64,000 nt of DNA from Procambarus clarkii (lineage: Eukaryota > Arthropoda > Malacostraca > Decapoda > Cambaridae), in contig NC_091195.1 of the NCBI RefSeq assembly GCF_040958095.1, positions 21,360,614-21,424,613 on the forward strand. The letters run 5' to 3'. A model generated the notes under the pieces. The model saw nothing but the letters and a program-made list of their open reading frames with translations, was not told where the DNA came from and did no database searches. Position numbers and translations under genes: made by a program. Numbering within the stretch: position 1 is the stretch's first letter; every line of letters begins with the position of its first letter. Below are positions 1,998-62,735 of this stretch, piece after piece.

Positions 1998-3138
1998 GGC
2001 ACACTCCTAATGGCAAGAATTTGACGCAAACACGAGAATGGCTGAGCCTGCTTCAGAGGCAGCTGGCTTTGCCCAAGACCTCTTCTCTCCTCTGCAGTTT
2101 TGTGAGGTGGTGCAGGAGGGTCAGGCAGGGCACCACCACGTTAAGGAGGAGCTGCCCCGGCCGCAGCCTCCGCAGCTGGCCACCACGCTATCCACCGCAC
2201 CAGTCACCTCCATGGTGAACATAACTGGGGTCACGACATCTGTACCCTCATCCACGTCCACTCAGCACATACACCTTCAAGCACAGCCTATCATGGCACA
2301 GATGGTGCAGCAGCATCAGCATGTACAGCATCAACACGTTCAACAACACCAGCAGCAGCAGCAGGGCCTTTCTCAGCCCAGACTACTTCAGCAGCAGATG
2401 ACTGTTCAACAGCCACCACAACCTATTGCTCAGCAGCAACTTCTCCAGCAGCACCAAGCTCAGCAACAAGCTCAGCAGCAAGCTCAGCAGCAAGCTCAGC
2501 AGCAAGCTCAGCAGCAAGCTCAGCAGCAAGCTCAGCAGCAAGCCCAGCAACAGGCCCAGCAACAGGCCCAACAACAGGCTCAGCAACAGGCCCAGCAACA
2601 AGCCCAGCAGCAGCAGCAGGTACTGCAGCAGGTGCAGCAGCAAGTACAACAGCAGTCATCACAGCAGCTAATACAAACACAACCACAGCAGCAGCAGACA
2701 AAACAACTTCAGCAACAATCAACTCCTCGGCAACCTCGGCAGCAAACTCCATCACAACAAATGCAATCACAGCAACAAATGCAACAGCAGCAAACACAGC
2801 ACCAGCAGCAGGCACAACAGCAACAGCAGCAGGCACAGCAACAAACACAACAGGTGCAACAGCCTCAGCAACAGCAACAAATACTGACATCTGTTAACAG
2901 TGTCCAGCTAGTTAATGGCCTACAGATGCCCATCACCGTTCATCACGCCGGCATATCGAAGACTCCGGCAACCGTGGCAGTGACCACTGGCACAGCCTCA
3001 CAGTCGCCCCCGATCATAGTATTGGCTGGAATTATGACTTCGAATAATAGTCCTGTAATTATCACGAGTAGTGGGGCAGCGGCTACGACTGCTGCTACTG
3101 TTGCAGCAACGACTAACGGAATTGTGAATAAAGAAGAT
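1998..3138 (+). CDS. Gene A exon with start codon and Gln-rich region
   Basis: The exon begins after tttacag at 1991-1997. The first 40 bases are untranslated and hold an in-frame TAA at 2008-2010, so ATG at 2038 is the first usable start (MAEPASEAAGFAQDLF). An acceptor before the start codon implies at least one upstream noncoding exon, not located. The coding part is 367 codons and ends in GAT before the donor GTGAGT at 3139. The Gln-rich part includes a run of the 12-base unit coding Q-A-Q-Q between about 2450 and 2610. After it comes a Thr/Val/Ala-rich segment with no obvious motif. Glutamine-rich regions of this sort are typical of transcription activators. The frame continues past the donor to 3279 only by read-through. 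Confidence 0.85.
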
Positions 3139-6100
3139 GTGAGTATCAATCATTTATTTTGTATTATTCACTTTATTTGCTGGGGGGGGGGGCCATTAGT
3201 GGCTCTGAGCTTAACCCTGATAGCACCAGGCGTTAGTCCAATACACCAGGCCTCCGAGACCTGGTGTTTGGGGAACTAGTAGCAGAATGTGGCTCCCGTG
3301 ATGAGGTGAGGGAATCAGAGATAAACCATAAAACCAGAAAAAAACAGAAAGCATAGGTACTTATCTATCAGTGACTGGGGGAGTGAGATCTAGTTCTTTA
3401 TGCCTCGCCTCCTACCAGTTTATACCTGCCATGTTAACACTTTCGCGCTCTCGGCGCTCAAAAAAAAAACAATACCCCAGATGCTTTCGGCACTTCGCGC
3501 GCCTACGCGGTAAGACCGAAAAGTGTACACTCTTTTGACTGTCCTGACAATAATTGAAGGCGCACGTATTTAAATTTGGTATCACTGTGTTCGCAATGAA
3601 ATTGTCTATAAGAGCATACCTATAAAATGCCGCCCAAGCATAAGGAGTATCAACACCAAATAAAAAACTATGCAGATCACTCGCCGAGAGCGCCAAACAG
3701 CAACAAAATGTTTCCACTCTCTTAATGGTTGCGAAGCCTACAGTTGTCCTACATCGCTAATTTTGGTATCATTGGAATCGCAATAAAATTCTCTACACGG
3801 ACATATGCATATGAATGTTTAATATAGGTAATTGCCCACCCGCAAGAGTGTGTGAAGTGGAGAGTAGTTAGCCGCGAGCGCACTGGCGAAAACACGGGGG
3901 AAATCATGCTTGGAAAGTTTATACGTTTCCTGACCCTACTTTTCTATGTATGTATTTCTTTTTTATACCAATGTGTTCGCAATAAAATTTTCTATAAGAT
4001 GAACTGTATAACATTTGTACAAAGCATGTGTAAGAGAAGCGCCAAATATAGAACCACGTCGCTCAGTATGCGTTCGCGGCAGAAACGAACGCATTATTTT
4101 CGTTCGTTTGATGTTTGTCATGTTTATACTTGTTGAAACATTTTATAATTTGTATGACAGTGATCGCAGTAAAATTCCCTACACAGACATATACATAACA
4201 CATACAAATATTTCCCACGTGTTGGATATATCAACGGCTAAAGGGAACCCACTGCCACACGCTCGCCACACCCCCAAACATACTTTGTGTATTTTTTTTT
4301 TTACTCATAGAAGTTTATGTGATATAATATTCATTCTGGTACCAAAACATTCGCAAATAAATTCCCTACAAAACAAAAGTATTCCCATCCATTTCGGTTA
4401 AAAAATGGAATTTATAGAAATATTTTTTCGATGCACGAGAAAACTCGGCTGTTATGCGGAATCGTAAGAGAAAACGGCGACGAGTTATCTCTAATCTAAA
4501 GCGCGAAAGTGTTAATTCTCTCTCGCAATGTTAAAAGTTTTCATCCTATTTCTTTTTAAAGTTGTGGATGGAATTGGCTTCAACAATCGAAGTTGTACAG
4601 CATCAACTGCAGCCAAAAAAGTTTTACGACTTCAATTGGCTTCAACAATTTCTTCCTTCGGTGCATTCCACCTGCTGACCACCCGTACAAGGAATAAGAA
4701 CTTTCTTACATTTCTTCGACTTAACTGTGTGTCCAGCTTCCACTAATAACCACTTTTTCTGCCTCTTGAATATAAATAGACTTTCTTTATCCACTTTATG
4801 AATTCACTTCAAGATTTTGTATGTAGTTATCATATCCCTTCTGTTTTGTTTCTTCTTTCCTCTAAGGTAGTGAGGGAGAATTCTCTCAACTTGTACTCAT
4901 AGTTGAGGCCTCTCAATTCTGGTACCAATCTAGTTGCAAACCTTTGAACTTTCTCAGGTTTGTGTTTCTGCTTCATAAGGTGTGTGGGTTCCATGCTGGA
5001 GCTGCATACTCAAGTAATGGTCTCATATAGGAAGTGTATGCCCACCAGAAATGTGCACAATTTTTGGATCCTAACTTCAGCCAAAAAAGTATTACAACTT
5101 CAAATACAAATACTGCAGTTAAGTTGTCACATATTTTATTTGACAGTTGATCCATGGGTCCCAACTTTAATTGAAATTGAAAGGGAACTATTGTTTCCAA
5201 ATTAATGTAAGGTAATTTGTGGTGCATTATTATGTAACACTGGACTTACTAAGACTTAACTTCTTCACATATATCCCTCCAATTGAGGGAGTTGTACTTG
5301 CCTATCTTACCATCTGTGATCATGACTCCAGACCCACGAATGTGTTGACTTGTAAATACTGGGTGCTTCAGATCCCTGTAATGTGATTGAGTAACATGCC
5401 CTTCTGCTCTTGCTAGGGTCCTCGCCCATTACCATAGTTGCCTATGGAATTACTGCTGTTGGTAAAGTAAAATGTTTACCTCCTCTCTCCTCCATTTGGA
5501 TTGGTCAATACAGCAACGGTCTCGCTTCTTGTAGGTCAGCACTCGATTCCAACAGTCCAAGTGGTTGGCCACCAGTCCTTTCATGTGCTGTATTGCTATA
5601 CTGGCTTAGCACTTTCCCTGATGTACCCCTCAGCCCAGCTCAAGTATTTCCAACTCAAACTGCCAACCTACGTTTTGGTTGTCCATCGAGAGTTCTGTAG
5701 TTTTCAAGTCGTTTGAAATATCTGGAGGTGTCTTGAAGGCTGAGGTATTTCCAGAGAAAACAAGACATTGTGTACCTTTACATAAATACAAATACAGTAA
5801 TGATTAAATTTGTTCATGTATTATTGAAAGAAGGATGGAATACTTTTAAATTTATACTGTCTTGGCGAGTGCATTTGGTCACGAATTCATCAGGGTCCAG
5901 GATAGACAGAAATGTCATCAGGGTCCAGGATGGACTGAAATGTCATCAGGGTCCAGGATGGACTGAAATGACATCACTTTCATTTCATATGTGTGGGTTG
6001 GGTTATATTTTTGTTCAGCCATGTTGTGATTTATTGTGTGTGTGCTAAATAATGTTTTACTCAGGTGAAACCTGTGCCTGTGAAGCGCACGTGGAGGAGA

Positions 6101-9100
6101 CCGTGGAAGAAGAAGAAGGAGAGAGAGAAAAAGCCGCCAGTGAAGAAGGCGCGAAGAGTGAAGAGAAAACGCATTGTTGTGCCCAAGAAATGTATTATCC
6201 ACATAGATCCAAGGAATGGTCCTATGGTAATGTATTATTGACATTCTTTATAGTACAGAAAAGCATTTGAGAAGTTAGTGATGAACACTTTTGTGTGAAA
6301 AAGGTCACGTTGAGACAACAATCAGGCTTGTGACCGATTAACCCCAATCCACTCGGTTATTTAAAGGGACTACATCAATCTACACACTTTTAAAAATAGT
6401 TAACAAATCAAATGGAAAAAAGCACATATGGCATTTGGAGGACAGGACGAAATCACATATAGCAATTGAGGCAGTGATTGGGTTAAAAGATAATTGATAT
6501 ATGGCAGTTCAAGTCTTTGAAGAAGCATATGCTGTGATAAACTAGAGAGGAGCTTTGAATTGTAATGCATATTATTGAAATTTATTAAATGGTACTTTAA
6601 GTTTTGCTAAGAGCTTCTATTTAGAGGGTAGATCATGTGTCAAAGGTAGTGATCACGTATAAGTTACTGATTTGATCACGTATAAGTTACTGATTTGATC
6701 ATGTATAAGTTACTGATTTGATCATGTATAAGTTACTGATTTGATCACGCATAAGTTACTGATTTGATCACGTATAAGTTACTGATTTGATCATGTATAA
6801 GTTACTGATTTGATCACGTATAAGTTACTGATTTGATCACGTATAAGTTACTGATTTGATCACGTATAAGTTACTGATTTGATCATGTATAAGTTACTGA
6901 TTTGATCACGTATAAGTTACTGATTTGATCACGTATAAGTTACTGATTTGATCACGTATAAGTTACTGATTTGATCACGTATAAGTTACTGATTTGATCA
7001 CGTATAAGTTACTGATTTGATCACGTATAAGTTACTGATTTGATCACGTATAAGTTACTGATTTGATCACGTATAAGTTACTGATTTGATCACGTATAAG
7101 TTACTGATTTGATCACGTATAAGTTACTGATTTGATCACGTATAAGTTACTGATTTGATCACGTATAAGTTACTGATTTGATCACGTATAAGTTACTGAT
7201 TTGATCACGTATAAGTTACTGATTTGATCACGTATAAGTTACTGATTTGATCACGTATAAGTTACTGATTTGATCACGTATAAGTTACTGATTTGATCAC
7301 GTATAAGTTACTGATTTGATCACGTATAAGTTACTGATTTGATCACGTATAAGTTACTGATTTGATCACGTATAAGTTACTGATTTGATCACGTATAAGT
7401 TACTGATTTGATCACGTATAAGTTACTGATTTGATCACGTATAAGTTACTGATTTGATCACGTATAAGTTACTGATTTGATTACGTATAAGTTACTGATT
7501 TGATCATTATAAGTTACTGATTTGATCACGTATAAGTTACTGATTTGATCACGTATAAGTTACTGATTTGATCACGTATAAGTTACTGATTTGATCACGT
7601 ATAAGTTACTGATTTGATCATGTATAAGTTACTGATTTGATCATGTATAAGTTACTGATTTGATCATGTAGGGGTAGTACATGAGAGTTGAGTAATGACC
7701 TCGTGGTATCCCCTGTGACCCATGGTATCCCTCTGTGACCCATGGTATCCTCTGTGACCCATGGTAACCTCTGTGACCCATGGTATCCCTCTGTGACCCA
7801 TGGTATCCTCTGTGACCCATGGTATCCCTCTGTGACCCATGGTATCCCTCTGTGACCCATGGTATCCCCTGTGACCCATGGTATCCTCTGTGACCCATGG
7901 TATCCTCTGTGACCCATGGTATCCTCTGTGACCCATGGTATCCCTCTGTGACCCATGGTATCCTCGGTGACCCGTGGTATCCTGTGACCCATGGTATCCT
8001 CTGTGACCCATGGTATCCTCTGTGACCCATGGTATCCTCTATGACCCATGGTATTCCTCTGTGACCCGTGGTATCCTCTGTGACCCATGGTATCCCTCTG
8101 TGACCCATGGTATCCTCTGTGACCCATGGTATCCTCTGTGACCCATGGTATCCTCTGTGACCCATGGTATCCCTCTGTGACCCATGGTATCCCTCTGTGA
8201 CCCATGGTATCCTCTGTGACCCATGGTATCCTCTGTGACCCATGGTATCCTCTGTGACCCATGGTATCCTCTGTGACCCATGGTATCCCTCTGTGACCCA
8301 TGGTATCCCTCTGTGACCCATGGTATCCTCTGTGACCCATGGTATCCTCTGTGACCCATGGTATCCCTGTGACCCATGGTATCCCTCTGTGACTCATGGT
8401 ATCCTCTGTGACCCGTGGTATCCCTCTGTGACCCGTGGTATCCTCTGTGACCCATGGTATCCTCTGTGACCCATGGTATCCTCTGTGACCCATGGTATCC
8501 TCTGTGACCTATGGTATCCTCTGTGACCCATGGTATCCCTCTGTGACTCATGGTATCCTCTGTGACCCATGGTATCCTCTGTGACCCATGGTATCCCTCT
8601 GTGACTCATGGTATCCTCTGTGACCCATGGTATCCTCTGTGACCCATGGTATCCCTCTGTGACCCATGGTATCCCTCTGTGACCCATGGTATCCTCTGTG
8701 ACCCATGGTATCCCTATGTGACCCGTGGTATCCTCTGTGACCCATGGTATCCTCTGTGACCCATGGTATCCCTCTGTGACCCATGGTATCCTCTGTGACC
8801 CATGGTATCCCTCTGTGACCCATGGTATCCCTCTGTGACTCATTGTATCCTCTGTGACCCATGGTATCCCTGTGACCCATGGTATCCCTCTGTGACTCAT
8901 TGTATCCTCTGTGACCCATGGTATCCCTGTGACCCATGGTATCCCTCTGTGACCCATGGTATCCTCTGTGACCCATGGTATCCTCTGTGACCCATGGTAT
9001 CCCTCTGTGACTCATTGTATCCCCTGTGACCCATGGTATCCCTGTGACCCATGGTATCCTCTGTGACCCATGGTATCCTCTGTGACCCATGGTATCCCTC

Positions 9101-12100
9101 TGTGACCTATGGTATCCTCTGTGACCCATGGTATCCCTCTGTGACCCGTGGTATCCCTGTGACCCATGGTATCCTGTGACCCATGGTATCCTCTGTGACC
9201 CATGGTATCCCCTGTGACCCATGGTATCCCTGTGACCCATGGTATCCTCTGTGACTCATTGTATCCTCTGTGACCCATGGTATCCTTTGTGACCCATGGT
9301 ATCCCTGTGACCCATGGTATCCTGTGACCCATGGTATTCCTCTGTGACCCGTGGTATCCTCTGTGACCCATGGTATCCCTCTGTGACCCATGGTATCCTC
9401 TGTGACCCATGGTATCCCTCTGTGACTCATTGTATCCTCTGTGACCCATGGTACCCCTGTGACCCATGGTATCCTCTGTGACCCATGGTATCCCCTGTGA
9501 CCCATGGTATCCCTGTGACCCATGGTATCCCTGTGACCCATGGTATCCTCTGTGACCCATGGTATCCCTCTGTGACTCATTGTATCCTCTGTGACCCATG
9601 GTATCCTCTGTGACCCATGGTATCCCTGTGACCCATGGTATCCTCTGTGACCCATGGTATCCCTCTGTGACCCGTGGTATCCCTCTGTGACCCATGGTAT
9701 CCTCTGTGACCCATGGTATCCTCTGTGACCCATGGTATCCCCTGTGACCCATGGTATCCCCTGTGACCCATGGTATCCTCTGTGACTCATTGTATCCTCT
9801 GTGACCCATGGTATCCTTTGTGACCCATGGTATCCCTCTGTGACCCATGGTATCCTCTGTGACCCATGGTATCCTCTGTGACCCATGGTATCCTTCTGTG
9901 ACTCATGGTATCCCTCTGTGACCCATGGTATCCCCTGTGACCCATGGTATCCCTCTGTGACCCGTGGTATCCCTCTGTGACCCATGGTATCCTCTGTGAC
10001 CCATGGTATCCTCTGACCCATGGTATCCCCTGTGACCCATGGTATCCTCTGTGACCCATGGTATCCCTCTGCGACCCGTGGTATCCCTCTGTGACCCATG
10101 GTATCCTCTGTGACCCATGGTATCCTCTGTGACCCATGGTATCCCCTGTGACCCATGGTATCCTCTGTGACCCATGGTATCCTATGTGACCCATGGTATC
10201 CTCTGTGACCCATGGTATCCCCTGTGACCCATGGTATCCTCTGTGACCCATGGTATCCTCTGTGACCCATGGTATCCTCTGTGACCCATGGTATCCCTCT
10301 GTGACCCATGGTATCCCTCTATGACTCATGATATCCCTGTGTGTCATGGTATCCCCTGTGACCCATGGTATTCTCTGTGACCCATGGTATCCCTCTGTGA
10401 CCCATGGTATCCCTCTGTGACCCATGGTATCCCCTGTGACCCATGGTATCCTCTGTGACCCATGGTATCCTCTGTGACCCATGGTATCCTCTGTGACCCA
10501 TGGTATCCTCTGTGACCCATGGTATCCTTTGTGACCCATAGTATCCTCTGTGACCCATGGTATCCCCTGTGACCCATGGTATCCCCTGTGACCCATGGTA
10601 TCCCCTGTGACCCATGGTATCCCCTGTGACCCATGGTATCCCTCTGTGACCCATGGTATCCTCTGTGACCCATGGTATCCTCTGTGACCCATGGTATCCT
10701 CTGTGACCCATGGTATCCCCTGTGACCCATGGTATCCCCTGTGACCCATGGTATCCTCTGTGACCCATGGTATCCCTCTGTGACCCATGGTATCCTCTGT
10801 GACCCATGGTATCCCTCTGTGACCCATGGTATCCTCTGTGACCCATGGTATCCTCTGTGACCCATGGTATCCTCTGTGACCCATGGTATCCCTCTGTGAC
10901 CCATGGTATCCTCTGTGACCCATGGTATCCTCTGTGACCCATGGTATCCTCTGTGACCCATGGTATCCTTTGTGACCCATGGTATCCATCTGTGACTCAT
11001 AATATCAACGTAACTCATGATATCCCTATTCCGGCTTCCCGCTGTTTCTATCGTCAAACCTGCAGCCTGACAACCCAAACGCCACTTTGAAAATATAAAT
11101 GTTTGCAAAACCAAAGTGTTTTTTTATGGAGGGAGCCCCTTCAGCTCCCTGGAGCTATCTGGGCTGATATGATTGTATTAGACTCCTGGCATCAATCAAT
11201 GCACATGGAGTTCTAGGCCTACTGGGGACCACGAGGCAGAACCTGGCCCCCCCTCAGAGAGGCACGAGGAGCAGTGGCCTATAGAAAGCCCCGTGTGGTT
11301 GAAAGCATTTTATGTCTGCCATCGACCGGGTCAGTCACCCCGAGAGGTAAGCATCCCAAAACAAACCCCTATTCCTGGTTAAAATATTGCTACTGAAAGT
11401 TGAACTAATTGACAGAACTCTCCAAATGAAAATGAGCAAACAAGCATCACGTCACCGCGTAACTGTCTGCGCCAACCCCCCCCCCCCCCCCCCCCCCACT
11501 CCACCCAACCTCACTCCACCTCCAGGAGGAGGAAGGGGGGGCCCCAGACCCCCATGCAGGCTATCCACCCTGCAGTTCTGTGGCTGATGTGAAACTGGCA
11601 AGGTCTTGCACCTCTGACCCTTTGGAGTCAGCTGGGATTTTTGTTGCCCTTGTTTGCCTCTGGGTTGGGGTAGTTTTTGCCTCTGGTTGGGGCACAGGGT
11701 ACTGTGCAGCTAGTTTTCAGCTCTTATAGTGGCCATCTCTGTTTTGCCTGGACACATTGTCCTCTTGCAGGGTTTTATTTTACTTTTTGTTTTCCTGCCT
11801 GGTGGGGGGTCTGCCTCTTGGTTTGGTCACACCTGTTTGTATCCTGGTGGTAATCTGTTTGGCCCCTGTGAATGTAAACTTCCCGGGGGGGGTTCAGCTT
11901 TAGCAGTTTGCTAGGTAGTTTTGGGTGCCGGATAGCAGGACCCGGCCTGGGCTTTCCTTAGCAAGATAACGCAACTAAGGGCCCTGGGAAACCCCAAGAG
12001 CGCTCTGTGGTCCAATGGATGTGACCCCTGGGGTCCCTTCTCACTTCGTGCAAGTTTAAAGGTTGCTCTGTCACCTTGTCTCAGGGTGACACTCACCAGT

Positions 12101-15100: not shown

Positions 15101-18100
15101 GCAAAGAATGAGACTGCTGCTTTCTGGAGGGGTCCTTGGGTTGTTGATGCTTGGTTGGTTTGGCCAGGGGTGCATCATATGTGTTGTGTCCAGTTGCGGC
15201 TGTTCGCCATTACCTGTGCGCTAAGCCTCAGTGGCCAGGGATGCGCTTTGGATTGAGCCGGTTTCCCTTCTTCCCTGTTCCAAGGCTCGGGTCTCCCAGG
15301 TTGTCCCCAGAGTTATTCGGTCCAGCCAGCCTGCGGTCTCTCCTCGTGCCCATGACGTTCGTAAGTTTGCTGATTTGGCTGCCGTCTTCGGTAACATGGG
15401 CTGACATTTGGGCACAGGGTTTTTGGAGGTCGAACAGGGTCTTGGCCGCTCGCTACCTGGTCAATGTTCCTGGGCCCTAGTTGGGTATGTGTCGCATTGG
15501 GTCAGCAGCTGCAGCCAGTTATCGCGACTTCGAGTTGAGGAGCGAGTGACGACCGCCTACCGGGTAAGTTCCTCTTGTTTTGTCTTTTGTTAAGTTGCTC
15601 CGGAGAGCCAAAGGGACTCCCGCCAGAAAACCAGCGTTGAATGTAATGAAATGTCATTTTCTGGCTGAGACCCGAAGACTCATCGGCATCCCTCCCTCCC
15701 TCCGGTCAGGGTTTTTTTTTTTTTTGAGAGAGAGTTTTTGATATCCACCCTCAGAACTGATGGTATGGATTGCCGGCGCAAGGGAATGGGGGGAGCTGTG
15801 TAGACAGCGGCGCAGGGACTGTTGTGATGTCATGATCGTTTGCTTTTTTTCATTTGGGGGAGTTCTGTCTAACAGTTCGGCTTTCAGTAGCAATATTTTA
15901 ACCAGATAGGGTTTGTTTTGGGGCGCCTACCTTTCTGGGTGGCTGACCCAGTTGATGACAGACATAGGCTGCTTTCAACCACATGGGGTTTTCTATAGGG
16001 CCATTTCTCCTCGTGCCTCTCTGAGGGGGACAGGTTCTGGCTCGTGGTGCCCCGGTAGACCTAAGAACTCCCTTTCCTTTGATTGATGCCAGGGTCTAAT
16101 ACATTCATATCAGCCCGGATAGCTCCGGGGAGCCTCCGGGTCTCACCCAAAAAATGACGTTTCATTACATTCAACGCTGGTTTTTTCAGATTGACACTGC
16201 TCTGAATCGAATTAAGAGAGAATCGGAGGAAGCCATCAATCAGCTAAAGCAAAAAAGACAGCGGATAAAGCTGAATCGGAATTCTGGCCGAGAGTATGTG
16301 AATCGTCTAGGGAAGGTGAGTATTCAGCAAAGACCAATTATATATATTTTTCATTCACCTGGGCACTAGGAGACTCGTACCACCGATCCCCCCTCCTACT
16401 TTGTGCTATGGATAGCCATAATAAGGAAGGATTACTGTGGAAGGAATTTCCACTGCATTTCATGAGAATAATTATCCTGTATAATGTATTGAGGGATTGG
16501 AGAACAGCGCATTAGTAAGACCTAATATTTTATGGTTCTGTTCTACTTCAAATGTGTTATAAGTTTGTTTGGGATTTTATTTATTTATTTTTTATTTTCT
16601 CCTAGTGATCCTTAACTTGTGAAAGAATTGCTTTAAGTGTGGTGTCTGTGTACACGTCTTCACATAGAACTGGTTTATATTTATGTTATAAGATATTCCA
16701 GTTATAAGAGGGAGAATATGTCCTTCTATTTCCATAGTGCGATAGGACAAATATCTAGTTTTCGTATTCACTTCAGACATGTTTATATTCAGTGGGTATT
16801 ATTTAATGATTTTTGCATGTTTCATTAGTGATTTTCAAGAAAGGTTACAACCATTGGACATCAATCAGAATTTCACCCTAGGTTGTCGGAGCGAGGATAA
16901 TTGGTCCACCTTGTCACTGCCCTTTGAAGTGTTGGGAACGGATGGGTTCCAAAATATTAGAAATCTTCAACAACTTTTGGGATCTGAGTGACTTCAACCT
17001 TCAGAATTCGTATCTATTTACCTGCCTTAAGCTCTGTGATGTGAAACGGCGATACACCAAGAAGGTAAAGGTAGTTAATTGCATAACTATGTTTATTTAA
17101 CTAGAATTAATTAGTATTAATTTGTACTCCTTTAGTTCCTAATTGTTTCTTAAGTTCGATTTGTTAGGATTGAGCTTCACACAGGGTTTTCAGTAACGTA
17201 ACCCCTGTAGTGTTTGTAATGTGGTATGTAGCAGCGTGCTCATTGTGGAGAACCTTCCCTCTGTATCTCCCTGAGTGATCCCTCTGGAAACCTTCAAACC
17301 CAGGTGCTATTATGCTTGGTAATCAGAATCATATGGGTCCCCACTCACATTCAAGTTATCTTGAGGTTATCTTGAGATGATTTCGGGGCTTTAGTGTCCC
17401 CACGGCCCGGTCCTCGACCAGGCCTCCACCCCCAGGAAGCAGCCCCTGACAGCTGACTAACTCCCAGGTACCTATTTACTGCTAGGTAACAGGGGGCATC
17501 AGGGTGAAAGAAACTCTGCCCATTATTTCTCGCCAGCGCCCGGGATCGAACCCGGGACCACAGGATCATGTGTCCAGTGTTCTGTCCGCTCAGCCGCCGG
17601 CTCTCTTTAGGTGAATTTCTTGCCAAGAGTGTCCAAAAATCTACATATTCTAAATTTTTTGCCTCTCAAGATGGTTACCTACACATTCCCATGATTTACA
17701 TTGACTCTAAAACAATGAATGCAAATATTTTTGGATTACCTGAAGATTTGGTTACCTGAATTTGGATTAGCGCACTCTTGCAGTACCATAGCACACACTA
17801 ATGAATCACAAGTGCCTACTGGAAACCACAACTTGAGTGTGACCCCTACAGTAGAGGGAAGAAGGTGAGTGTACACGATCAGCCACATTACCAAAGGATA
17901 ACCACTGGAAAGGTAGCATGCACCAAAAGAAGCAACTGCTTGGACAACTACAGTATTTATACAGTAGTAGACAACTACAGTATTTATACAGTAGTAGACA
18001 ACTACAGTATTTATACAGTAGTTGTTTGTGTCCAACTGCCAGTTGGCTCCCCTCACTTGCCACCTGCTTGATGGGGTTCTGGGAGTTCTTCTACTGCCCA

Positions 18101-21100
18101 AGCCCGGTCCGAGGCCAGGCTTGACTTGTGAGAGTTTGGTCCACCAGGCTGTTGCTTGGAGCGGCCTGCAGGCCCACATATACCTGGTTGATGGGGTTCT
18201 GGGAGTTCTTCTACTGCCCAAGCCCGGTCCGAGGCCAGGCTTGACTTGTGAGAGTTTGGTCCACCAGGCTGTTGCTTGGAGCGGCCTGCAGGCCCACATA
18301 TACCTGGTTGATGGGGTTCTGGGAGTTCTTCTACTGCCCAAGCCCGGTCCGAGGCCAGGCTTGACTTGTGAGAGTTTGGTCCACCAGGCTGTTGCTTGGA
18401 GCGGCCTGCAGGCCCACATATACCTGCTTGATGGGGTTCTTGGAGTTGTTCTACTGCCCAAGCCCGGCCCGAGGCCAGGCTTGACTTGTGAGAGTTTGGT
18501 CCACCAGGCTGTTGCTTGGAGCGGCCCGCAGGCCCACATATACCTGGTTGATGGGGTTCTTGGAGTTGTTCTACTGCCCAAGCCCAGCCCGAGGCCAGGC
18601 TTGACTTGTGAGAGTTTGGTCCACCAGGCTGTTGCTTGGAGCGGCCCGCAGGCCCACATACCCACTATACCCCAGTTGGTTCGGCACCTGTTTTTAGAAT
18701 CAATCTAGTTTTCTCTTAAAGATGTCCATGGTTATTCCGGAAATATTCCTTATAGTCGCTGGGAGGACATTGAACAACCGCGGACCTCTGATGTTTATAC
18801 AGTGTTCTCTGATTGTGCCTATGGCACCTCTGCTCTTCACTGGTTCTATTCTGCATTTTCTTCCATATCGTTGACTCCAGTATGCTGCTATTTTACTGTG
18901 CAGATTTGGGACCTGGCCCTCCAGTATTTACGGTATATATATAAGTATATACAATACAGTACTGTATTTACATACAGTACTGTATTGTAGCTACTTGATG
19001 GTGAAGGGTCCCAGGTAGCTACGCCAGTCATTCACACACACACGATGCCTCATTACTCTATGGACACCAATACTTCACCAAAGTGTTGGCCAGTCCTTGG
19101 ACTCTGTCCTATGCAGGTGTCTGTGCTTGTGTTTGTTCGTTTACTGCTTTGGGTGCACATTATAACTCAAGAAATAACTGAGAAAGCATGAGGTGATTTT
19201 ATTCATTTTTAAGCATTGCTAAGCAGGAACTGCCAAGTATGCAGGGTTTATGTTCTGCAATTTGCAGAGATGACTAAAATCTATTACAATTACACTTTTG
19301 GTTTTGTATCTATTCTATTTGACAGATCATTTGCAATCATTTTGACACCAAATTTATTGTTTCAACCCAAAAAATAAGTTAGAAAACATTCAATGAGTGT
19401 AAACATTTTTTGCACCATTGAGGATCCACCCAGGGGATATCAGAAAGCTTACAGTCTGGAATGCACAGAGAGGCTGGACCATAAAAGTTTTAATATAGTC
19501 AGTGGTTTAATATAGCCTTTACAGTCATTGGTTCCCAACAAATGAGTCGCCAGACATGGATGAGTGAGTTTAGACGTATGGGAACAAAAAATGTCAGCAA
19601 AGCATTTGTAAACACCCTTAAAGATTATTAGTCTCCCTGCTACCATGTCCCCATAATATCAGATCTTATTGCTTAGCGGTGCCTTAGAAACGAGCTGACA
19701 AACACTGGGATTACTAGTGCCTGCCTTTAAACACACCCCGAATACTGATCTCCAACAACTCACGAGGCTGAAGATCCGGTAATCAGGTTTAATATTCTAG
19801 GAGTATTGCCTAAAAGAATGAAAACGAAGTGAGTTATAATCAAGCATGCACTATATGTATGTATGTATTGTTTTACTGGTAAAATTCTCATGCAAGTGGT
19901 TGATATGTCTCTGTCTTGAGATAGGCACTAGTGCACCCAGAGACTTTGTTTTGTGATAAATCTGGATATGCTGCCATTTTTTGTTAGCGCTCTAATGTTC
20001 CAACTCAATGGTGCATTCCTGAATGTAAGCAATCGAGGTATCTCGGGGTCCTGCTCAGTCACACCCAAAATGTTCATACTCTTAAAGTTTTTCTCAGTTT
20101 TTGGGTTATTAATATAGTTGTCAAAATGTTTGAAATTGAATGTGCGAGAATTGCAGCACCACTGCCAGTGTTGGACAGCAATGTCCAACACTTTTAGCAC
20201 CGTGGGCTACTTCAACACTTAACTTATGAGTCCAGGGTCAAAAATTATGCAATATATATGCAGTTAGAGCTCGTTAACTTGCACTCTGGTAACCTGAATC
20301 TTCGAGTAATCAATAAGATTTTTTTCTGGGGTGGGAGGGGGGGGGTTAAAAAATCCATAATTTTTATGGGGGGGGAGAGGGCTCTTTGAGGCTCTCTGAA
20401 CTATTACACTGATTCAGTGCCATACTACTCGGTGCCATCAGTCACAGGGTTCTTATTGGCCTACAGGGAACCACCAGCCAGAACCTGGCACCCTCAGGCA
20501 CAGGGAGCTATGAACTATGAACACCTTACATCTAAAGTTAATCATGTCTGCCATCAGTCAGCGAAACAAAACAGACTACTGTATGGTTAAAAGGAGACGC
20601 AGCCTCAAAAATTGCCAGAACAACTCCCCAACAGTGAAAACAAAGCTCCAACATTTAGTTAAACTAATGCGAGCTAATTTGCCCCACCTCCCCTCTTCGT
20701 TTGTGGGGTGGAAGGAGGCGGACCTGGTCAGCCGGCTCACCTCAACCTCAGTTCTTATACTGATGTAACATGGTGCAGGTTGCCCTCTCAGTTGACTCTG
20801 GCTCCAGGCTCCAGTTTTCACTAAGTGTTGGTTGCCTTTGAGGCTGTTCTTACACACGTTTGTGTAGTGTGAGCCGGGAGTTATAGTGTGTTAGGAGTTG
20901 CCTGTCATCAGGGTTATCTTCCCTGTGTGCTCCTTAAGTGCTTCTCTTGCACAGTCAGGGTTATCTTAACTGTGTGCTCCTTAAGTGCTTCTCTTGCACA
21001 GTCAGGGTTATCTTAACTGTGTGCTCCTTAAGTGCTTCTCTTGCACAGTCAGGGTTATCTTAACTGTGTGCTCCTTAAGTGCTTCTCTTGCACAGTCAGG

Positions 21101-24100
21101 GTTATCTTAACTGTGTGCTCCTTAAGTGCTTCTCTTGCACAGTCAGGGTTATCTTAACTGTGTGCTCCTTAAGTGCTGCCCTTGCACAGTCAGGATTATC
21201 TTAATTGTGTGCTCCTTAAGTGCTTCTCTTGCACAGTCAGGGTTATCTTAACTGTGTGCTCCTTAAGTGCTTCTCTTGCACAGTCAGGATTATCTTAACT
21301 GTGTGCTCCTTAAGTGCTTCTCTTGCACAGTCAGGATTATCTTCCCTGTGTGCTCCTTAAGTGCTGCCCTTGCACAGTCAGGATTATCTTAACTGTGTGC
21401 TCCTTAAGTGCTGCCCTTGCACAGTCAGGGTTATCTTAACTGTGTGCTCCTTAAGTGCTGCCCTTGCACAGTCAGGGTTATCTTAACTGTGTGCTCCTTA
21501 AGTGCTGCCCTTGCACAGTCAGGGTTATCTTAACTGTGTGCTCCTTAAGTGCTGCCCTTGCACAGTCAGGGTTATCTTAACTGTGTGCTCCTTAAGTGCT
21601 GCCCTTGCACAGTCAGGGTTATCTTAACTGTGTGCTCCTTAAGTGCTGCCCTTGCACAGTCAGGGTTATCTTAACTGTGTGCTCCTTAAGTGCTGCCCTT
21701 GCACAGTCAGGGTTATCTTCCCTGTGTGCTCCTTAAGTGCTGCCCTTGCACAGTCAGGATTATCTTCCCTGTGTGCTCCTTAAGTGCTGCCCTTGCACAG
21801 TCAGGGTTATCTTCCCTGTGTGCTCCTTAAGTGCTGCCCTTGCACAGTCAGGGTTATCTTCCCTGTGTGCTCCTTAAGTGCTGCCCTTGCACAGTCAGGA
21901 TTATCTTAACTGTGTGCTCCTTAACACTTTCGCGCTCTCCGCAAAGGTCACTCAGCCAACCGAATGTTCGCGCTGCGTTTTTATCGCTTAAGCGTAAAAA
22001 CAAAAATGTGAATACTCTTTTTACTCTTCTGACCTTAGTTCTCATGCTACGTATTTCATTTTGGTACCAACGTGTTCGCAATAAAATTCTCTAGAAGAAC
22101 ATTAGTAAAATAAGACACGAAACATATAGGGATACCAGCACCAAATAAATAACTACGAAGATGACTCGCCGTGAGCGCCCATCAGCAACAAAATGTTTTT
22201 ACTCTTGGGATTGTAATCACCTCCACACTTGTTCTACAGCGTTAATTTTGGTATCAATGGACTCGCAATGAAATTCCCAACACGGTGATATGAATATAAG
22301 CGTAGAATTATGATGCAGCCCGCCCGCAAGAGTGTGGGAAGTGGTGAAATTGTTACCCGGTATCGGTGACGGGACGACGCACGGCGCTTTGAAAGTTTAT
22401 ACTTATTTCACTCTCATGACATTAATTTTCTATGTACGTCATTCATTTTTATGTCAATGTGTTCGCAATAGAATGTTCTATGTGCCCATAGGTAAAAAAT
22501 ATCAACAAAGCGTAAGTTAGAATAGCGACAAATATAAAACAACGCTGGAACATATCAGTGAGCGTCAAACACACACGAAATATTTTTACTTTTGTTATGT
22601 TTGTCAAGATTATACTTGTTGCACACAGTTATTTTTGGTTGTATATTGATCGGAATAAAATTCCCTAAACAGACATATGCATATAATACATGATATGGGG
22701 GAAGAATTACCAGTATAAACGGCTAAAGTCACCCACCTGCAACCCGTTTGGGACAAAATACATTTTGATCGAAGTTATCCACACCTTTCATGAACTTATT
22801 GTACCATGCAGCCTAGTGGTGAGAAAGAGAGCCTCATAGCGCGCAGTTTGAAACAAACCCAAAGTAAATCGGATAAAAATTGAATTTTATACAAATATTT
22901 TAAAAGTAGACATAACTTTATGTCCACTATGCGTTTACGTTAGACGAAACCGAACGCGCCAGCGCGTCCAGATAGCGCGAAAGTGTTAAGTGCTTCTCTT
23001 GCACAGTCAGGGTTATCTTCCCTGTGTGCTCCTTAAGTGCTTCTCTTGCACAGTCAGGGTTATCTTCCCTGTGTGCTCCTTAAGTGCTTCTCTTGCACAG
23101 TCAGGGTTATCTTCCCTGTGTGCTCCTTAAGTGCTTCTCTTGCACAGTCAGGGTTATCTTAACTGTGTGCTCCTTAAGTGCTTCTCTTACACAGTCAGGA
23201 TTATCTTAACTGTGTGCTCCTTAAGTGCTGCCCTTGCACAGTCAGGGTTATCTTAACTGTGTGCTCCTTAAGTGCTGCCCTTGCACAGTCAGGATTATCT
23301 TAACTGTGTGCTCCTTAAGTGCTTCTCTTGCACAGTCAGGATTATCTTAACTGTGTGCTCCTTAAGTGCTTCTCTTGCACAGTCAGGGTTATCTTCCCTG
23401 TGTGCTCCTTAAGTGCTTCTCTTGCACAGTCAGGGTTATCTTCCCTGTGTGCTCCTTAAGTGCTTCTCTTGCACAGTCAGGGTTATCTTAACTGTGTGCT
23501 CCTTAAGTGCTTCTCTTACACAGTCAGGGTTATCTTAACTGTGTGCTCCTTAAGTGCTTCTCTTGCACAGTCAGGATTATCTTAACTGTGTGCTCCTTAA
23601 GTGCTGCCCTTGCACAGTCAGGATTATCTTAACTGTGTGCTCCTTAAGTGCTTCTCTTGCACAGTCAGGGTTATCTTAACTGTGTGCTCCTTAAGTGCTG
23701 CCCTTGCACAGTCAGGATTATCTTAACTGTGTGCTCCTTAAGTGCTTCTCTTGCACAGTCAGGATTATCTTAACTGTGTGCTCCTTAAGTGCTGCCCTTG
23801 CACAGTCAGGATTATCTTAACTGTGTGCTCCTTAAGTGCTGCCCTTGCACAGTCAGGGTTATCTTCCCTGTGTGCTCCTTAAGTGCTGCCCTTGCACAGT
23901 CAGGATTATCTTAACTGTGTGCTCCTTAAGTGCTTCTCTTGCACAGTCAGGATTATCTTCCCTGTGTGCTCCTTAAGTGCTGCCCTTGCACAGTCAGGGT
24001 TAGGGACACTCCCATTTGGGGGGGGGGGTGCGAGGTCTTCATGTTCGGCATGGTCCTTTCAGGTAAACCAAAGGGTTTACCTGAAAGGGTTGGGTTAGGG

Positions 24101-26725
24101 GGGTTTTTGCCTGTGGGGCACATTATGGTCTGGCCATCCTGCTACTCTGCTAACAGTCACCGACGTTTCTCCCCTGCATGTGTTTCTGATCATTTATAGC
24201 AATTATGATGACTTTACCTAATATAGTATAATAGAAATTGTATGGAACCTGAAATATATAAATGTTCTTGAAACTATGCTTCCTACAAACAATTGTATCT
24301 CTCATTTTATGTCCCCAGCCTGCAGAAGAATCACGACGGCAGAATACGTTTGAATATTTTGTTCGCATCAGCGGCAAGCATCTTCGAGTCTGCAAGAGGG
24401 CCTTTATGAGCTCCCATGGACTGACGAGTGATAAAAGGCTTCGAACTCTCTTTCATCAGATGAAGGTTAGTTGTGTTATGCTTCTGTTTTCTCTCATTAT
24501 GCTCCAGTAGTACTCGAAATCCAGACATGTTCAGGTCTCAGTTGCTATTATTACTAAATAACTGTACCTGATTTTCATTGCATTTCTTGGGCTCAATACA
24601 CTCCCTGTAAACATTTCGCTCTCTGTAAACATTGCTTTCCATGTAATCATTACCCCTCCCTAACTATTGTTATTGCACAGAGAAGCTGTTGTAGCACACC
24701 TTTTGTGTCCCCGAGTAATGACAGATCAGGGATACGTTTCCTCACTCAATATCCTAGTGGCAGACCATAGTAGTTTGGTATTGGCATGCTCACTCAAGTT
24801 CTAGTTGGTTCCGTCTGAGGTTCAGGCCTGGTTGGGCCTAGTTTGGGATAACTGGTCGTGTCTCTTTTTCCCCCCCCTCCTGTGGCTCTGCTTCATTGTA
24901 ACTGCTCTCCCAGTGGTTCATTCCCTGAGCTGCTGGAGGATTGCTTTCAGATCTTCTTTATCTGGAGCTGGACTCTTGTGTAGCTTGGCTCCTGGATTCT
25001 TGGGGTTTGATTCTCTGCACAGCTTGTGTGTGTGTGTGTGTGTTTGTCTGCCATTCTTGCAGATGGTTTATCTTGGTTCCATCCCATTTCCACAAAGTAG
25101 ACCATCAATGACTAGTCCTTCTGCTGGCTTTGAGAGATGTTTGGTTTCCCCTAAGGTGGATCTTTCGGCATCAGTTTGAAACTATCAGCTTCCCTCTTAC
25201 GTGGCTCCATTCCCAGATCATAAGGCTCGGATAATAGATGCCTTTCTACTGGCCTGATTGAGGTGGAGGTTCCTCTATCTCTTCACCCGATTTAGTTGTT
25301 ACTCTGGACGTTGCCTCGTGTGTGTCTGCAACCTGGAGAAGGTATTCTTCTGGCTCCTTGGTGGCCGGCTCAGCCATGGTTTTCAGCTCTTCGGGCATGG
25401 TGTGTGAACCTGGGCATTTATACATGGGTCTGCCTCTTTCAGCGGATCAGCCTGACAAAATACATTGCTGGTTTGACTTCTCCACCGACCTACACATCTG
25501 GATATTTCATTTTTTTTTAACTGGTGTTTACCACTATTTATGGTGCATGGGTGACTGAATTGTAGGTGGTGTCCCGCCTACAAGTATCTTTCATCATGGC
25601 AAGAGTATGAAGTTTCCTGGTGCTCCTTTTGCCACATTGTGTGTTTGCATCATTTTTCATTGGCATTTCTTCCAGTAGTTCTGTCCCTTTTTTGTCCCGG
25701 TTATTTTTTGATCGGCATCTCATGCCCAATACTGCCACCGCCACGTCTTATCACTCGGCTTTGGTGGAGCTGCTCTTACTAGTGTTTGGCATCGATATTT
25801 CCTTGGCACTGTTTCACAAGTTGTCTTAAGCTTTCTTTCACCTTTGGCTTTTGCTTTCCTCATCTCAGTGAGATAGTTTTAGGGAACCACTGAGGCTGTA
25901 CCAGAAAGAAACATTCATTACATTCATTGCTGTTTTTTTCTATGCAGGTGCATACAAGAACAGCCAACTTCTGATTCCTGTTAACAGGCCGAGCTTTCCC
26001 TTCTTATCGCTCAATGTAAGCCTTACCCTACTGGTTTTCTCTGAAACACGACCTGTGAATTGGTTAACAACTAGGTAAACAATTGGTGTTGGGCAAACAG
26101 GGGTGAACAGGAAGGCTATGCTCCCAGTCGGTCATCCCTGGCAAGGACTTGAACACAGACCAAATCACTCTCAAGGCAAAGGCTGAGTGTGTTGCCACTG
26201 CTGTGTAAATGTACAAATACTTGTTAAAATATAGTAAGCATAAAAATTGTTATCGTTTTGTGTTATGTTCTTAAGTGCTCAATGTTTATTTTCTAGGATG
26301 GTGCTCTGGTTCCTGAACCTGACCGACGAGGGAAGCACCTAAGACCAATCAAGTCTCCCAACCAAATGAGCCCTACCCATAATATTGAAACGTACAATAC
26401 TCATAAAATTAAGAAGCCTCGCTCTACAAAGAAGAAACAAAACAACAAATTGGAAAACAAACCCATGTACACCCCACCACCTCCTCCAATGGGTCATATT
26501 CACCCTCACTGTACCCCCCCGCCCCCACCTGCCCACGCCACCACCATGCAGGAGCCCCCCCACGCGTACATCCCCAACGGAGACATATACTTTCCCGGCC
26601 ATTACCTCGAACCTCATCAATCCATGGCACCGCCCCATGTGAACCAGATCCCATCGTGCCAGAAGATGTTGGAGGCTCCCGCGTACTTCATGGCCGGCAT
26701 GAAGGAGAACACTTTCCACCAGTAG
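2038..26725 (+). CDS. Gene A: Q-rich nuclear protein with a transposase-type Cys/His module (six coding exons)
   Basis: Joined coding exons are 2038-3138, 6065-6226, 16190-16315, 16882-17064, 24319-24465 and 26297-26725. Every junction has an AG acceptor and a GT donor, all introns are phase 0, and the 715-codon frame is open to TAG at 26723-26725. Domains in order: acidic/neutral N-terminus (1-80), Gln-rich region (about 81-285), Thr/Ala/Val-rich stretch (286-367), basic nuclear-localisation-like segment (368-421), short helical segment (422-450), Cys/His module (about 451-590) and Pro/His-rich tail (600-715). The module contains RNSGREYVN, IGPPCHCPLKC, FWDLSDFNLQNSYL, RVCKRAFM and DRRGKH. 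From family knowledge, this order is seen at the N-terminus of transposase-like multicopy proteins of arthropods, upstream of a nuclease-like domain; that domain is absent here. Inference: a host transcription or chromatin factor using a domesticated DNA-binding module. I do not recognise a named orthologue. Confidence 0.82.
2450..2612 (+). repeat. 12-base coding repeat (QAQQ)
   Basis: About 13 copies of caagctcagcag and close variants (caggcccagcaa), inside the Gln-rich exon. The two sub-blocks differ at synonymous positions, which suggests expansion in two phases. Confidence 0.85.
3139..3437. other. Gene A intron 1, left part
   Basis: Donor GTGAGT, then a run of G at 3182-3192 and the block aggcctccgagacctggtgt, which faintly resembles the DIRS right-end region near 36000. 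No gene. Confidence 0.4.
3438..4511. mobile_element. piggyBac-type nonautonomous element, copy 1
   Basis: Terminal inverted repeats CACTTTCGCGCT, flanked on both sides by TTAA (3434-3437 and 4512-4515), the target duplication expected of the piggyBac superfamily. The interior (1074 bp) has no transposase frame but holds about five spaced copies of a motif like gttcgcaataaaattctcta. Homologous to the element at 21925-22985. Confidence 0.85.
4760..5230 (-). mobile_element. LINE fragment, reverse transcriptase C-terminal region
   Basis: Minus-strand translation includes YTSYMRPLLEYAAPAWNPHT, the block found after the reverse transcriptase domain of CR1/jockey-like LINEs (compare FVRPKLEYAAVVWCPYLEKH in other copies here). 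Frames are broken. From 5231 to 5887 I see nothing further. Confidence 0.65.
5888..5971 (+). repeat. 28-bp unit in three tandem copies
   Basis: Three copies of catcagggtccaggatggac followed by tgaaatgt, next to catcactttcatttcatatg and a gggttgggttat end. The unit is the half-site of the fold-back family seen at 1838, 27734, 44720 and 58060. Confidence 0.8.
6065..6226 (+). CDS. Gene A exon: basic segment
   Basis: A 54-codon phase 0 exon between ttttactcag and GTAATG. Its translation starts VKPVPVKRTWRRPWKKKK and continues with many Lys/Arg, ending IIHIDPRNGPM. About half of the first 42 residues are basic, consistent with a nuclear localisation signal or nucleic-acid contact. The longest open frame printed over this stretch is in another frame; phase with both neighbours supports this one. 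Confidence 0.8.
6648..7672. repeat. 23-bp minisatellite
   Basis: About 44 head-to-tail copies of a unit starting gatcacgtataagttactg and ending attt. The variation is nearly all one C/T change (gatcacg/gatcatg) concentrated at the two ends, with a uniform centre. It lies in the third coding intron region of gene A (6227-16189). Confidence 0.97.
7703..11010. repeat. 19-bp satellite-like array
   Basis: Roughly 170 copies of tcctctgtgacccatggta, mixed with 18- and 20-base variants that differ in the number of C/CT bases. Because unit lengths differ, long open frames appear on the minus strand (repeats of MGHRGYHGSQ and IPWVTEDT). They shift among frames and are not genes. Minor variants carry gactcat or cccgtgg. 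Confidence 0.97.
11930..12725 (+). pseudogene. DIRS gag-like remnant
   Basis: The clearest stretch reads MWVQAASALHARFRMLQCAR then LVATPDAPRLPCFGYRDLDL. Its position before the reverse transcriptase fits the first frame of DIRS elements. Stops and frame shifts interrupt it, and I assign gag mainly from position. Confidence 0.5.
12730..13440 (+). pseudogene. DIRS reverse transcriptase (broken)
   Basis: Motifs are present across shifting frames: VFLDLKDAYWHIPIHRG, YRFHCLPFGLNLAPCIFT and the catalytic block VLAYLDDWLVWAPS (the YLDD box). The order and spacing match DIRS reverse transcriptase. A stop follows LLAKDLVLS, and the frame changes at least once before 12800. Confidence 0.85.
13444..14450 (+). 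pseudogene. DIRS RNase H region (broken, SINE-interrupted)
   Basis: EVFTVASSLGWDFVACVY matches the RNase H start, but the catalytic Asp is replaced (FTV instead of FTD). A SINE then interrupts the coding region. After it come LLSDCSPVVYCLNRS, VSNVLVDSLS, EWTVDADSFIWLCQTYGPPE and VDLFASAGSR, in two or three frames. Confidence 0.75.
13580..13812 (-). mobile_element. tRNA-derived SINE with alternative head, inside the DIRS element
   Basis: Read on the minus strand: a tRNA-like head (13811-13738) with box B gcgggttcgattcccgc and a possible CGT anticodon, then the same body as family 1 (aggtacctgggagttagtca type), ending in (GT)n and A-rich sequence. The head is clearly different from the family 1 head, while the body is shared. 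Confidence 0.85.
14480..15480 (+). pseudogene. DIRS tyrosine recombinase (broken)
   Basis: The N-terminal core-binding region reads YEVSWRSFLYFMSLCRFSSV, SDQIALSFLSWLFQDRHLMT and NTVSSYRTALAEPLQLAFEV. The catalytic region has LASGVWVGELHAL, where the usual Arg is Trp (GVWVGE for GCRVGE), then AHDVRKFADLAA with the H-x-x-R pair, and FWRSNRVLAARYLVN with the nucleophile Tyr. Frame changes separate these blocks. Confidence 0.85.
16190..16315 (+). CDS. Gene A exon: helical segment and start of the Cys/His module
   Basis: A 42-codon phase 0 exon, acceptor ttttttcag at 16181-16189 and donor GTGAGT at 16316. It reads IDTALNRIKRESEEAINQLK and ends NSGREYVNRLGK. The first half is predicted helical and charged. 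The last 14 residues match the usual start of the transposase-associated module (R-N-S-G-x-x-Y-V, then G-K). Unusually, the polypyrimidine tract and acceptor lie at the right end of a DIRS retrotransposon. Confidence 0.82.
16316..16881. other. Gene A intron between the 42- and 61-codon exons
   Basis: About 566 AT-rich bases, donor GTGAGT, acceptor ccctag. No repeat or gene recognised. Confidence 0.6.
16882..17064 (+). CDS. Gene A exon: Cys-rich part of the module
   Basis: A 61-codon phase 0 exon from the acceptor ccctag (ending 16881) to donor GTAAAG at 17065. Translation begins VVGARIIGPPCHCPLKC and continues with FNNFWDLSDFNLQNSYL and VKRRYTKK. Cysteines at protein positions 474, 476, 480, 511 and 515 are candidate zinc ligands. 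The exon was identified by frame and motif. An upstream alternative acceptor at aatcag would break the frame. Confidence 0.82.
17065..17353. other. Gene A intron, left edge before the SINE
   Basis: Donor GTAAAG, then AT-rich sequence without recognisable content. Confidence 0.4.
17354..17604 (-). mobile_element. tRNA-derived SINE, family 1 (minus)
   Basis: Reverse complement of the family 1 copies: tail ttatcttgagatgatttcgg, body, then a head with box B complement cgggatcgaacccggg. Near full length. Confidence 0.9.
17940..18030. repeat. 27-bp unit in three copies
   Basis: Three copies of acaactacagtatttataca followed by gtagtag. Simple tandem duplication in a gene A intron. Confidence 0.85.
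18065..18920 (-). mobile_element. LINE 3' end with internal 120-bp amplification
   Basis: Read on the minus strand, the part at 18920-18680 encodes INIRGPRLFNVLPATIRNIS and then MDIFKRKLD, the C-terminus of a CR1/jockey-like LINE. Next comes the 120-bp unit (18660-18065) with NSLVDQTL-like coding, repeated five times. A single copy of the same junction exists on the plus strand at 59650-59865. Confidence 0.8.
18069..18660. repeat. 120-bp tandem repeat, five copies
   Basis: The unit is exactly 120 bases, starting atggggttctgggagttctt. The first three copies are almost identical. The last two share changes (tggagttgtt; cggcccgcagg), so the array grew by duplication of two subtypes. 120 is divisible by three, which gives a long artefactual open frame on both strands. 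Confidence 0.97.
18921..20384. other. Intron sequence without recognised features
   Basis: Part of the 7.2-kb gene A intron. It contains a short palindrome-like run of acagtactgtatt near 18955-18990 and a G-rich run at 20330-20345. No gene or transposon identified. Confidence 0.5.
20385..20860 (+). mobile_element. DIRS left terminal repeat fragment
   Basis: Shares, in the same order, ggcctacaggg-, cagaacctggcaccctcag and tgtctgccatcagtcag with the left terminal repeat at 11160-11340, at lower identity. No coding part follows; the 47-bp array begins instead. Confidence 0.6.
20925..24000. repeat. 47-bp minisatellite, split by a transposon
   Basis: About 21 copies on each side of the element at 21925-22985. 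The unit begins cagtcagggttatcttaact and contains gtgctccttaagtgcttctc. Subtypes alternate (cttctcttgc/ctgcccttgc; cttaactg/cttccctg; cagggtt/caggatt) in blocks, showing segmental duplication. It lies within a gene A intron. Confidence 0.97.
21925..22985. mobile_element. piggyBac-type nonautonomous element, copy 2
   Basis: Termini CACTTTCGCGCTCTCC and, reversed, CACTTTCGCGCTATC, flanked by TTAA at 21921-21924 and 22986-22989. The flanks join to restore a normal repeat unit (gtgctccTTAAgtgcttctc), so the empty site and the 4-base duplication are directly visible. 1061 bp, no transposase frame. Confidence 0.92.
24055..24088. repeat. Perfect 15-bp inverted repeat
   Basis: Arms cctttcaggtaaacc and ggtttacctgaaagg with a 4-base spacer, just after the 47-bp array and a G run. 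Could form a hairpin; function unknown. Confidence 0.85.
24319..24465 (+). CDS. Gene A exon: RVCKRAFM part of the module
   Basis: A 49-codon phase 0 exon between gtccccag and the donor GTTAGT. It encodes NTFEYFVRISGKHLRVCKRA followed by FMSSHGLTSDKRLRTLF. The V-C-K-x-x-F-M motif followed by a short Ser/His/Gly stretch is the second conserved block of the transposase-associated module. Cys 549 and His 557 are candidate metal ligands. Confidence 0.83.
24466..24789. other. Gene A last intron, left part
   Basis: Donor GTTAGT, then AT-rich sequence. Nothing recognised before the DIRS fragment. Confidence 0.45.
24790..25945 (+). mobile_element. DIRS fragment: RNase H to recombinase and right end
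   Basis: Relics in order: SPKVDLSASV (compare PPEVDLFAS), ILLAPWWPAQPWFSALRA, then recombinase blocks HLMPNTATA and SYHSALVELLLLVFGIDIS. It ends with ttacattcattgctgttttt, like the right end of the main element. Many frame breaks. Confidence 0.75.
25990..26215 (-). mobile_element. Decayed tRNA-derived SINE
   Basis: The minus strand begins acagcagtggcaacacactc with a degenerate box B (tgttcaagtccttgcc), then a body with aacaactaggtaaacaattg on the plus strand. Resembles the body of the SINE near 56500. Confidence 0.5.
26297..26725 (+). CDS. Gene A terminal exon: RGKH motif and Pro/His-rich tail
   Basis: A terminal exon of 142 codons plus TAG, acceptor ttctag. It begins DGALVPEPDRRGKHLRPIK, where D-x-R-G-K-H is the closing motif of the module. 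In multicopy relatives the nuclease-like region follows; here a Lys-rich stretch, two runs of five prolines, a His/Pro/Met-rich segment and the end MKENTFHQ follow instead. Base composition is more GC-rich than the flanking introns. Confidence 0.85.
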   Translation, partial: DGALVPEPDRRGKHLRPIKSPNQMSPTHNIETYNTHKIKKPRSTKKKQNNKLENKPMYTPPPPPMGHIHPHCTPPPPPAHATTMQEPPHAYIPNGDIYFPGHYLEPHQSMAPPHVNQIPSCQKMLEAPAYFMAGMKENTFHQ

Positions 26726-62184: not shown

Positions 62185-62296
62185 TTCATCTCTAAAACAC
62201 CTCTATATGCTCTATGTTGTTATGTATCTGGAATTCTTATTGTGTCTGGTTCTCTGAAGATTTCATTTTGTACAGACACACTTTCAAACTTTTCGT

Positions 62297-62683: not shown

Positions 62684-62735
62684 TTACTTCCCTGCCTAGC
62701 AACAAGTCTGTCCAATTACACTCATTATAAAATTG

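Follow-up and report, generated by a model that had tools for sequence, protein, structure and literature searches.

A predicted six-exon host gene of Procambarus clarkii with a Cys/His module found at six genomic loci

The window, a stretch of 64,000 nucleotides from Procambarus clarkii, holds a predicted gene of six exons on its + strand (2038-26725). Judged by profile and pairwise comparisons, this gene is a member of a family of six loci that have a Cys/His module in common. The results support a host gene with an activator-like region and a Cys/His module, and the most plausible interpretation is that it belongs to a small, undescribed group of nuclear regulators. With moderate confidence we take it to be a functional host gene, present in single copy, whose product is a nuclear regulator; the module would act as a zinc-binding unit that contacts DNA or chromatin.

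The six exons join into 715 codons plus a stop codon. Exon 1 opens with ATG and exon 6 closes with the stop, the five introns are all of the GT...AG type, all joins are in phase 0 and the length of each exon is divisible by three. Exon 1 (2038-3138, residues 1-367) has a low-complexity start after the ATG, followed by a Gln-rich stretch and a Ser/Thr/Ala/Val-rich end; 134 of its 367 residues are Gln, its donor is GTGAGT, and a 12-bp tandem repeat of 13.4 copies inside it (2449-2609, + strand) encodes Gln/Ala repeats. By eye, positions 1998-2037 on the same strand may be the 5' untranslated part of this first coding exon, with an acceptor-like ATTTACAG ahead. Exon 2 (6065-6226, residues 368-421) encodes a Lys/Arg-rich linker, possibly a nuclear-localisation or AT-hook-like segment. 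The module starts in exon 3 (16190-16315, residues 422-463) with the motif RNSGREYVN at residue 451, continues in exon 4 (16882-17064, residues 464-524) with IGPPCHCPLKC at residue 470 and the FWDL and QNSYLF segments, and in exon 5 (24319-24465, residues 525-573) with RVCKRAFM at residue 547 in an RVCKRAFM...HGL segment. Exon 6 (26297-26725) runs to the stop codon and comprises the module end (26297-26353, residues 574-592) with DRRGKH at residue 582, a short segment to HNIETY (26354-26395, residues 593-606), and a Lys-rich, then Pro/His-rich tail with the stop (26396-26725), all on the + strand. Splice sites, frame and residue positions thus confirmed what the original prediction had proposed, namely six phase-0 exons in one 715-codon frame with four ordered motifs; the predicted Pro/His-rich tail is likewise present, in the same exon as DRRGKH.

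The Cys/His module and its family in the genome

When the spliced protein was aligned with the intronless open reading frame (ORF) at the C30 locus, a local score of 350 was obtained, and 300 shuffles of the C30 ORF reached at most 60. Apart from a gap of three residues close to the join of exons 4 and 5, the alignment, which stops at HNIETY, runs through the joins of exons 3/4, 4/5 and 5/6 and thereby supports all three. A held-out profile was made by aligning seven modules, removing the row of the window gene and building from the remaining six paralogous modules. It was searched against 5,044 ORFs from the window and the five other loci, to which the spliced protein had been added. The spliced protein scored 139.4 bits (E 3e-41) over profile positions 2-149 of 153, with the match reaching residue 592; this value is not fully independent, because the alignment used for training had included the window row as well as proposed splice joins in C18 and C20. 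Among single ORFs, those holding exons 4, 5 and 3 scored 50.0, 46.8 and 10.8 bits (E 0.12 for the last). ORFs of the C25 locus, which is not in the profile and whose scores are independent of the model of the window gene, reached 37.5 and 27.7 bits, with 11.7 bits for an uncertain third piece, and the top ORF outside the family among the 5,044 scored 8.2 bits. By these comparisons the module is real and more than a chance resemblance. Its predicted spread over four exons was borne out, since exons 3-6 hold one of the four motifs each and the profile and the C30 alignment agree with this.

Seventeen columns are invariant in the seven aligned modules, including C36, K39, C40, V108, C109, K110, F113, D142, R144 and G145 (numbering of the first row). 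The putative His ligands (in HG and RGKH) are kept in five of the seven modules and so is the first Cys column, which weakens the case for a fixed zinc site. The fold predicted for exon 4 alone consisted of two helices (mean pLDDT 52, pTM 0.28) and was too poor for use.

The whole genome (4.03 Gb in 2308 contigs) was searched with protein queries. The 144 module residues of the window protein gave 14 matches at E up to 10, of which four were exons of the gene itself; the others lay in C30 (one), C89 (two), C18 (two), C20 (three), C25 (one) and C11 (one). The C30 match is intronless over query residues 3-140, with 45% identity and an E value of 7.4e-33. The C11 match (E 2.0; at best 4.1 bits against the profile) was dropped as chance. 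With 210 residues of the C30 ORF, including the second domain described below, 11 matches were obtained: C30 (one), C89 (two), the window (two), C18 (two), C20 (three) and C22 (one), with C25 absent. A C25 query gave eight matches, all within the same six loci and with C30 absent. Together the three queries yielded six loci with eight modules (one each in the window gene, C30, C20 and C25, two each in C89 and C18), and these counts are lower bounds. The C22 match (C22:11202067-11202288) is weak (E 7.5; 5.3 bits against the profile), has stop codons inside and resembles a worn module; it is perhaps a chance match or a relic of another subfamily.

None of the five other loci holds a near-identical copy of the window module, and the six aligned rows from C30, C89, C18 and C20 are 27-45% identical to it. 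Many near-identical copies with nuclease domains, which would speak against a host gene according to the original prediction, were thus looked for genome-wide and not found. A fourth query combined exon 1, its Gln run left out, with exon 2 and the tail; of its 12 matches four lay in the gene itself, one was a fragment in C1 (E 5e-4) and seven were weaker rows (E 0.47 to 9.65). No convincing counterpart of exon 1 (Gln run left out), exon 2 or the tail was found in the relatives by this genome query. As far as these searches can tell, the gene is single-copy and host-like. The gene is less isolated than had been supposed, with five relatives by its module, at least two of which (C18 and C20) have low-complexity sequence as well. 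The C1 fragment (C1:53635233-53635409) corresponds, in decayed form, to 141 bp of exon 6 (window 26451-26591). Of the 159 columns in their alignment, 137 are identical, 4 are mismatches and 18 contain gaps, which lie mostly in C runs.

All five paralogous loci have the same module with its parts in the same order, and they differ from the window gene in architecture. At C30 a single module is followed by a second domain and then a stop. C89 has two modules within one 727-codon ORF. In C18, one uninterrupted frame (39721202-39722173) covers a low-complexity N-terminus together with the beginning of the first module, so that this fusion does not depend on the splice guess. From there on, proposed splicing gives the rest of the module, the second domain, a second module and the second domain again; the last ORF is either read through to its terminal stop or left by a splice just before it. 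Proposed splicing of C20 results in a 503-residue protein whose module occupies the first three exons; its Pro/Gln/Gly/His-rich tail lies in the last exon, which is itself joined by proposed splicing. At C25 the module is represented by two exons and perhaps by a third piece.

To score the second domain, each of six post-module segments was compared with a profile of the other five and with shuffles. Those of C30 (14.0 bits), C89 (22.3 and 15.7 bits for the first and second module) and C18 (33.5 and 35.1 bits) beat every scored shuffle. The C20 segment scored 1.0 bits, a value reached by 18 of 282 scored shuffles; a second domain common to C30, C89, C18 and C20, as the alignment had suggested, was therefore rejected for failing this left-out test in C20. 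The 19 residues tested after the module of the window gene scored 0.6 bits, no less than which was obtained with 62 of 299 scored shuffles, and the profile gave no support for a remnant of the domain at residues 593-606, which the C30 alignment had hinted at. Thus, unlike C30, C89 and C18, the window gene appears, as far as tested, to be without the second domain, and it has one module where C89 and C18 have two.

Origin of the module

Module introns were mapped in the window gene, C18, C20, C30 and C89, with C25 left out. They lie after alignment columns 27, 91 and 146 in the window gene, 112 and 155 in the first and 113 and 155 in the second C18 module, and 66, 119 and 167 in C20; C30 and both C89 modules have none. 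The positions in the paralogs thus differ from those in the window gene, none of whose module introns recurs in C18 or C20. The two C18 modules agree within one alignment column, which suggests that the C18 module was probably duplicated after its introns were in place. Over 175 codons of the window gene and C30 (45% identical), pN was 0.38 and pS 0.84. Saturation thus affects the synonymous but not the amino-acid differences, which indicates that the module lineage has long been under purifying selection, as seen in one distant paralog pair and not in the gene's own species group. A tree of the seven modules grouped the window gene with C30 and C20 (94/93); its branches are long and it was not relied on.

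Database searches gave no known DNA-binding domain in the window protein by Pfam, NCBIfam or PDB. Residues 368-715 had no Pfam match up to E 1, the protein had none in NCBIfam and the module profile none in PDB, and the tested proteins of C20, C89, C25 and C30 had no Pfam match up to E 0.5. Among the seven aligned members, two had a Pfam match that no other member shared (E 0.024 and 0.053); both were taken as chance, and a match of exon 1 to Vps55 (E 0.12) was rejected for the same reason. No description of the module was found in the literature searched.

Multicopy transposase-like proteins of arthropods have the N-terminal motif order GREYVN / C-rich / VCK..F / RGKH, and PF25273 (DUF7869) is presumably the C-terminal part of the arthropod proteins with this order. 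The motif order of these DUF7869-type proteins would be like that of the window gene; the gene itself has no DUF7869 match, and its family counts six loci, a lower bound. PF25273 had no match in the genome at E up to 0.001, a weak negative since none of 14 control genomes matched either. A nuclease active-site pattern gave no match in the genome, the reversed control gave none as well, and a positive control was lacking. In a scan of viral contigs six stretches matched a pattern and none was confirmed as a relative. Altogether, the three whole-genome protein queries and the nuclease searches revealed no mobile relative in this genome. The predicted absence of the nuclease part therefore stands, as none was found by Pfam, PF25273 or the active-site pattern, the last two being weak negatives. 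The terms transposase-type and domestication fared differently: nothing that was measured supports them, the loci are six and of low copy number, no mobile relative was found in this genome, and the link to arthropod transposase-like proteins is a presumed one. The gene does have features of the domestication type, as it is single-copy, split by introns and, by one distant paralog pair, under constraint. A domesticated transposase fails no decisive test and passes no positive one, and is not supported.

Two accounts of the origin were weighed. The module may belong to an old host family that was never a transposase, i.e. an ancient domain of nuclear proteins that mobile elements borrowed elsewhere. 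The low copy number, the strong divergence of the paralogs (25-43% identity to the window row in another alignment), the proposed multi-exon structure of the window gene, C18, C20 and C25 and the failure to find a nuclease all fit this account; against it, the nuclease searches are weak negatives without a positive control, and one genome was searched. We regard an old host family as possible, though less likely than not.

Alternatively, a lost intronless transposon may have donated its N-terminal DNA-binding module several times, with introns gained independently after each event. The intron data speak for this, as the three module introns of the window gene match none in C18 or C20 and the C30 and C89 modules are intronless, and so does the like motif order in arthropod transposase-like proteins. 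However, no mobile or nuclease-bearing relative was found in the genome, intron turnover also occurs in old gene families, and the shared positions in the two C18 modules imply that introns can persist through duplication. The unlike intron positions fit separate origins from an intronless ancestor and fit intron turnover in an old family too. Repeated domestication, which concerns origin as the old family does and is compatible with the reading of the gene as a nuclear regulator, is in our judgement rather unlikely. Its boldest form is doubtful; here the module would be an undescribed DNA-binding domain that regulator genes took up on several independent occasions from an intronless mobile element now lost. 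If this were true, each of the six loci would stand for a recruitment of its own within one genome, with the module doubled in two of them. Whether there was one old family or several recruitments becomes testable with other genomes through the unlike intron positions.

A mobile-element origin has been reported for Imagin, a domesticated Ginger1 integrase gene of malacostracans which is reported to keep an integrase core and an H2C2 finger (PMC12863088). Imagin and the window gene are both single-copy host genes of several exons; for the window gene, however, a mobile origin is a proposal, and where Imagin has its integrase core and H2C2 finger, residues 368-715 match no Pfam family.

Extent of the gene model and proposed function

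The Gln-rich region had been predicted to lie in front of the module. Exon 1 is indeed Gln-rich, open and in phase 0; its putative join to the rest, like that of the basic exon 2, is based on splice signals, the open frame and analogy with C18. It could be that exon 1, and perhaps exon 2, come from another gene and that the module gene starts at exon 3 or at an unseen exon. The 13 kb between exon 1 and the first module exon, which contain a retroelement and large tandem arrays, would agree with a partly wrong model, as would the failure to find a relative sharing exon 1 or 2 and the 10.8 bits of the exon 3 ORF taken alone. We nevertheless find such an error improbable, as the splice signals are good, every join is in phase 0 and C18 has its low-complexity N-terminus in the same exon as the start of its module. 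A decayed or untranscribed relic without function is hardly credible, given that all six exons are open with canonical splice sites and conserved motifs, and that pN is low against a saturated pS in the comparison with C30.

We infer that the gene is expressed as modelled and that its product, a putative nuclear regulator, acts in the manner of a transcription or chromatin factor. In this reading the Cys/His module, at residues about 443-592, would form a zinc-supported fold with a basic surface binding DNA or chromatin, and the Lys/Arg-rich exon 2 would serve nuclear import and non-specific contact with nucleic acid. The Gln-rich exon 1 and the Pro/His-rich tail may recruit transcription or chromatin cofactors; low-complexity Gln/Pro/His stretches are also found in proteins other than transcription factors. 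Zinc binding, DNA binding, activation and nuclear location are all proposed properties of the protein. With no Pfam match, six low-copy loci and low-complexity activator-like sequence in at least three of them, the module may well be a DNA-binding domain not yet characterised, for which it is a good candidate. The plant transcription factors FHY3/FAR1, which reportedly derive from a Mutator transposase (PMC13306707), can be likened to the window gene by function only, as transposase-derived regulators, and were compared by description.

Other features of the window

The introns of the gene hold long tandem arrays at 6650-11000, 20908-21924 and 22986-24002, made up of a 23-bp unit in 44 copies, a 19-bp unit in 172 copies and, in two arrays, 47-bp units with 21.6 copies per array. 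A broken retroelement (12757-15500, + strand) lies in the intron that separates exons 2 and 3; it has a weak RVT_1 match of 24.0 bits, below the cut-off of 29.6, which we take to be DIRS-like.

Exons of another host gene were recognized on the - strand at 47380-46871 and 55388-55044. Two joined pieces of this gene carry an fn3_4 domain (PF16794, E 3.5e-26), and an ORF upstream in it contains VIDLTDEDE and has no Pfam match; a PDB sequence search with the gene gave no match. We assume it to be a heterochromatin factor of the ATF7IP/windei type. Also on the - strand, an ORF resembling CENP-B_N (37000-37374; 19.9 bits against a cut-off of 21.2) is perhaps a Tigger-type remnant, and a LINE-type element occupies 60789-63998, with matches to RVT_1 (E 3.3e-25) and Exo_endo_phos (E 3.6e-8).
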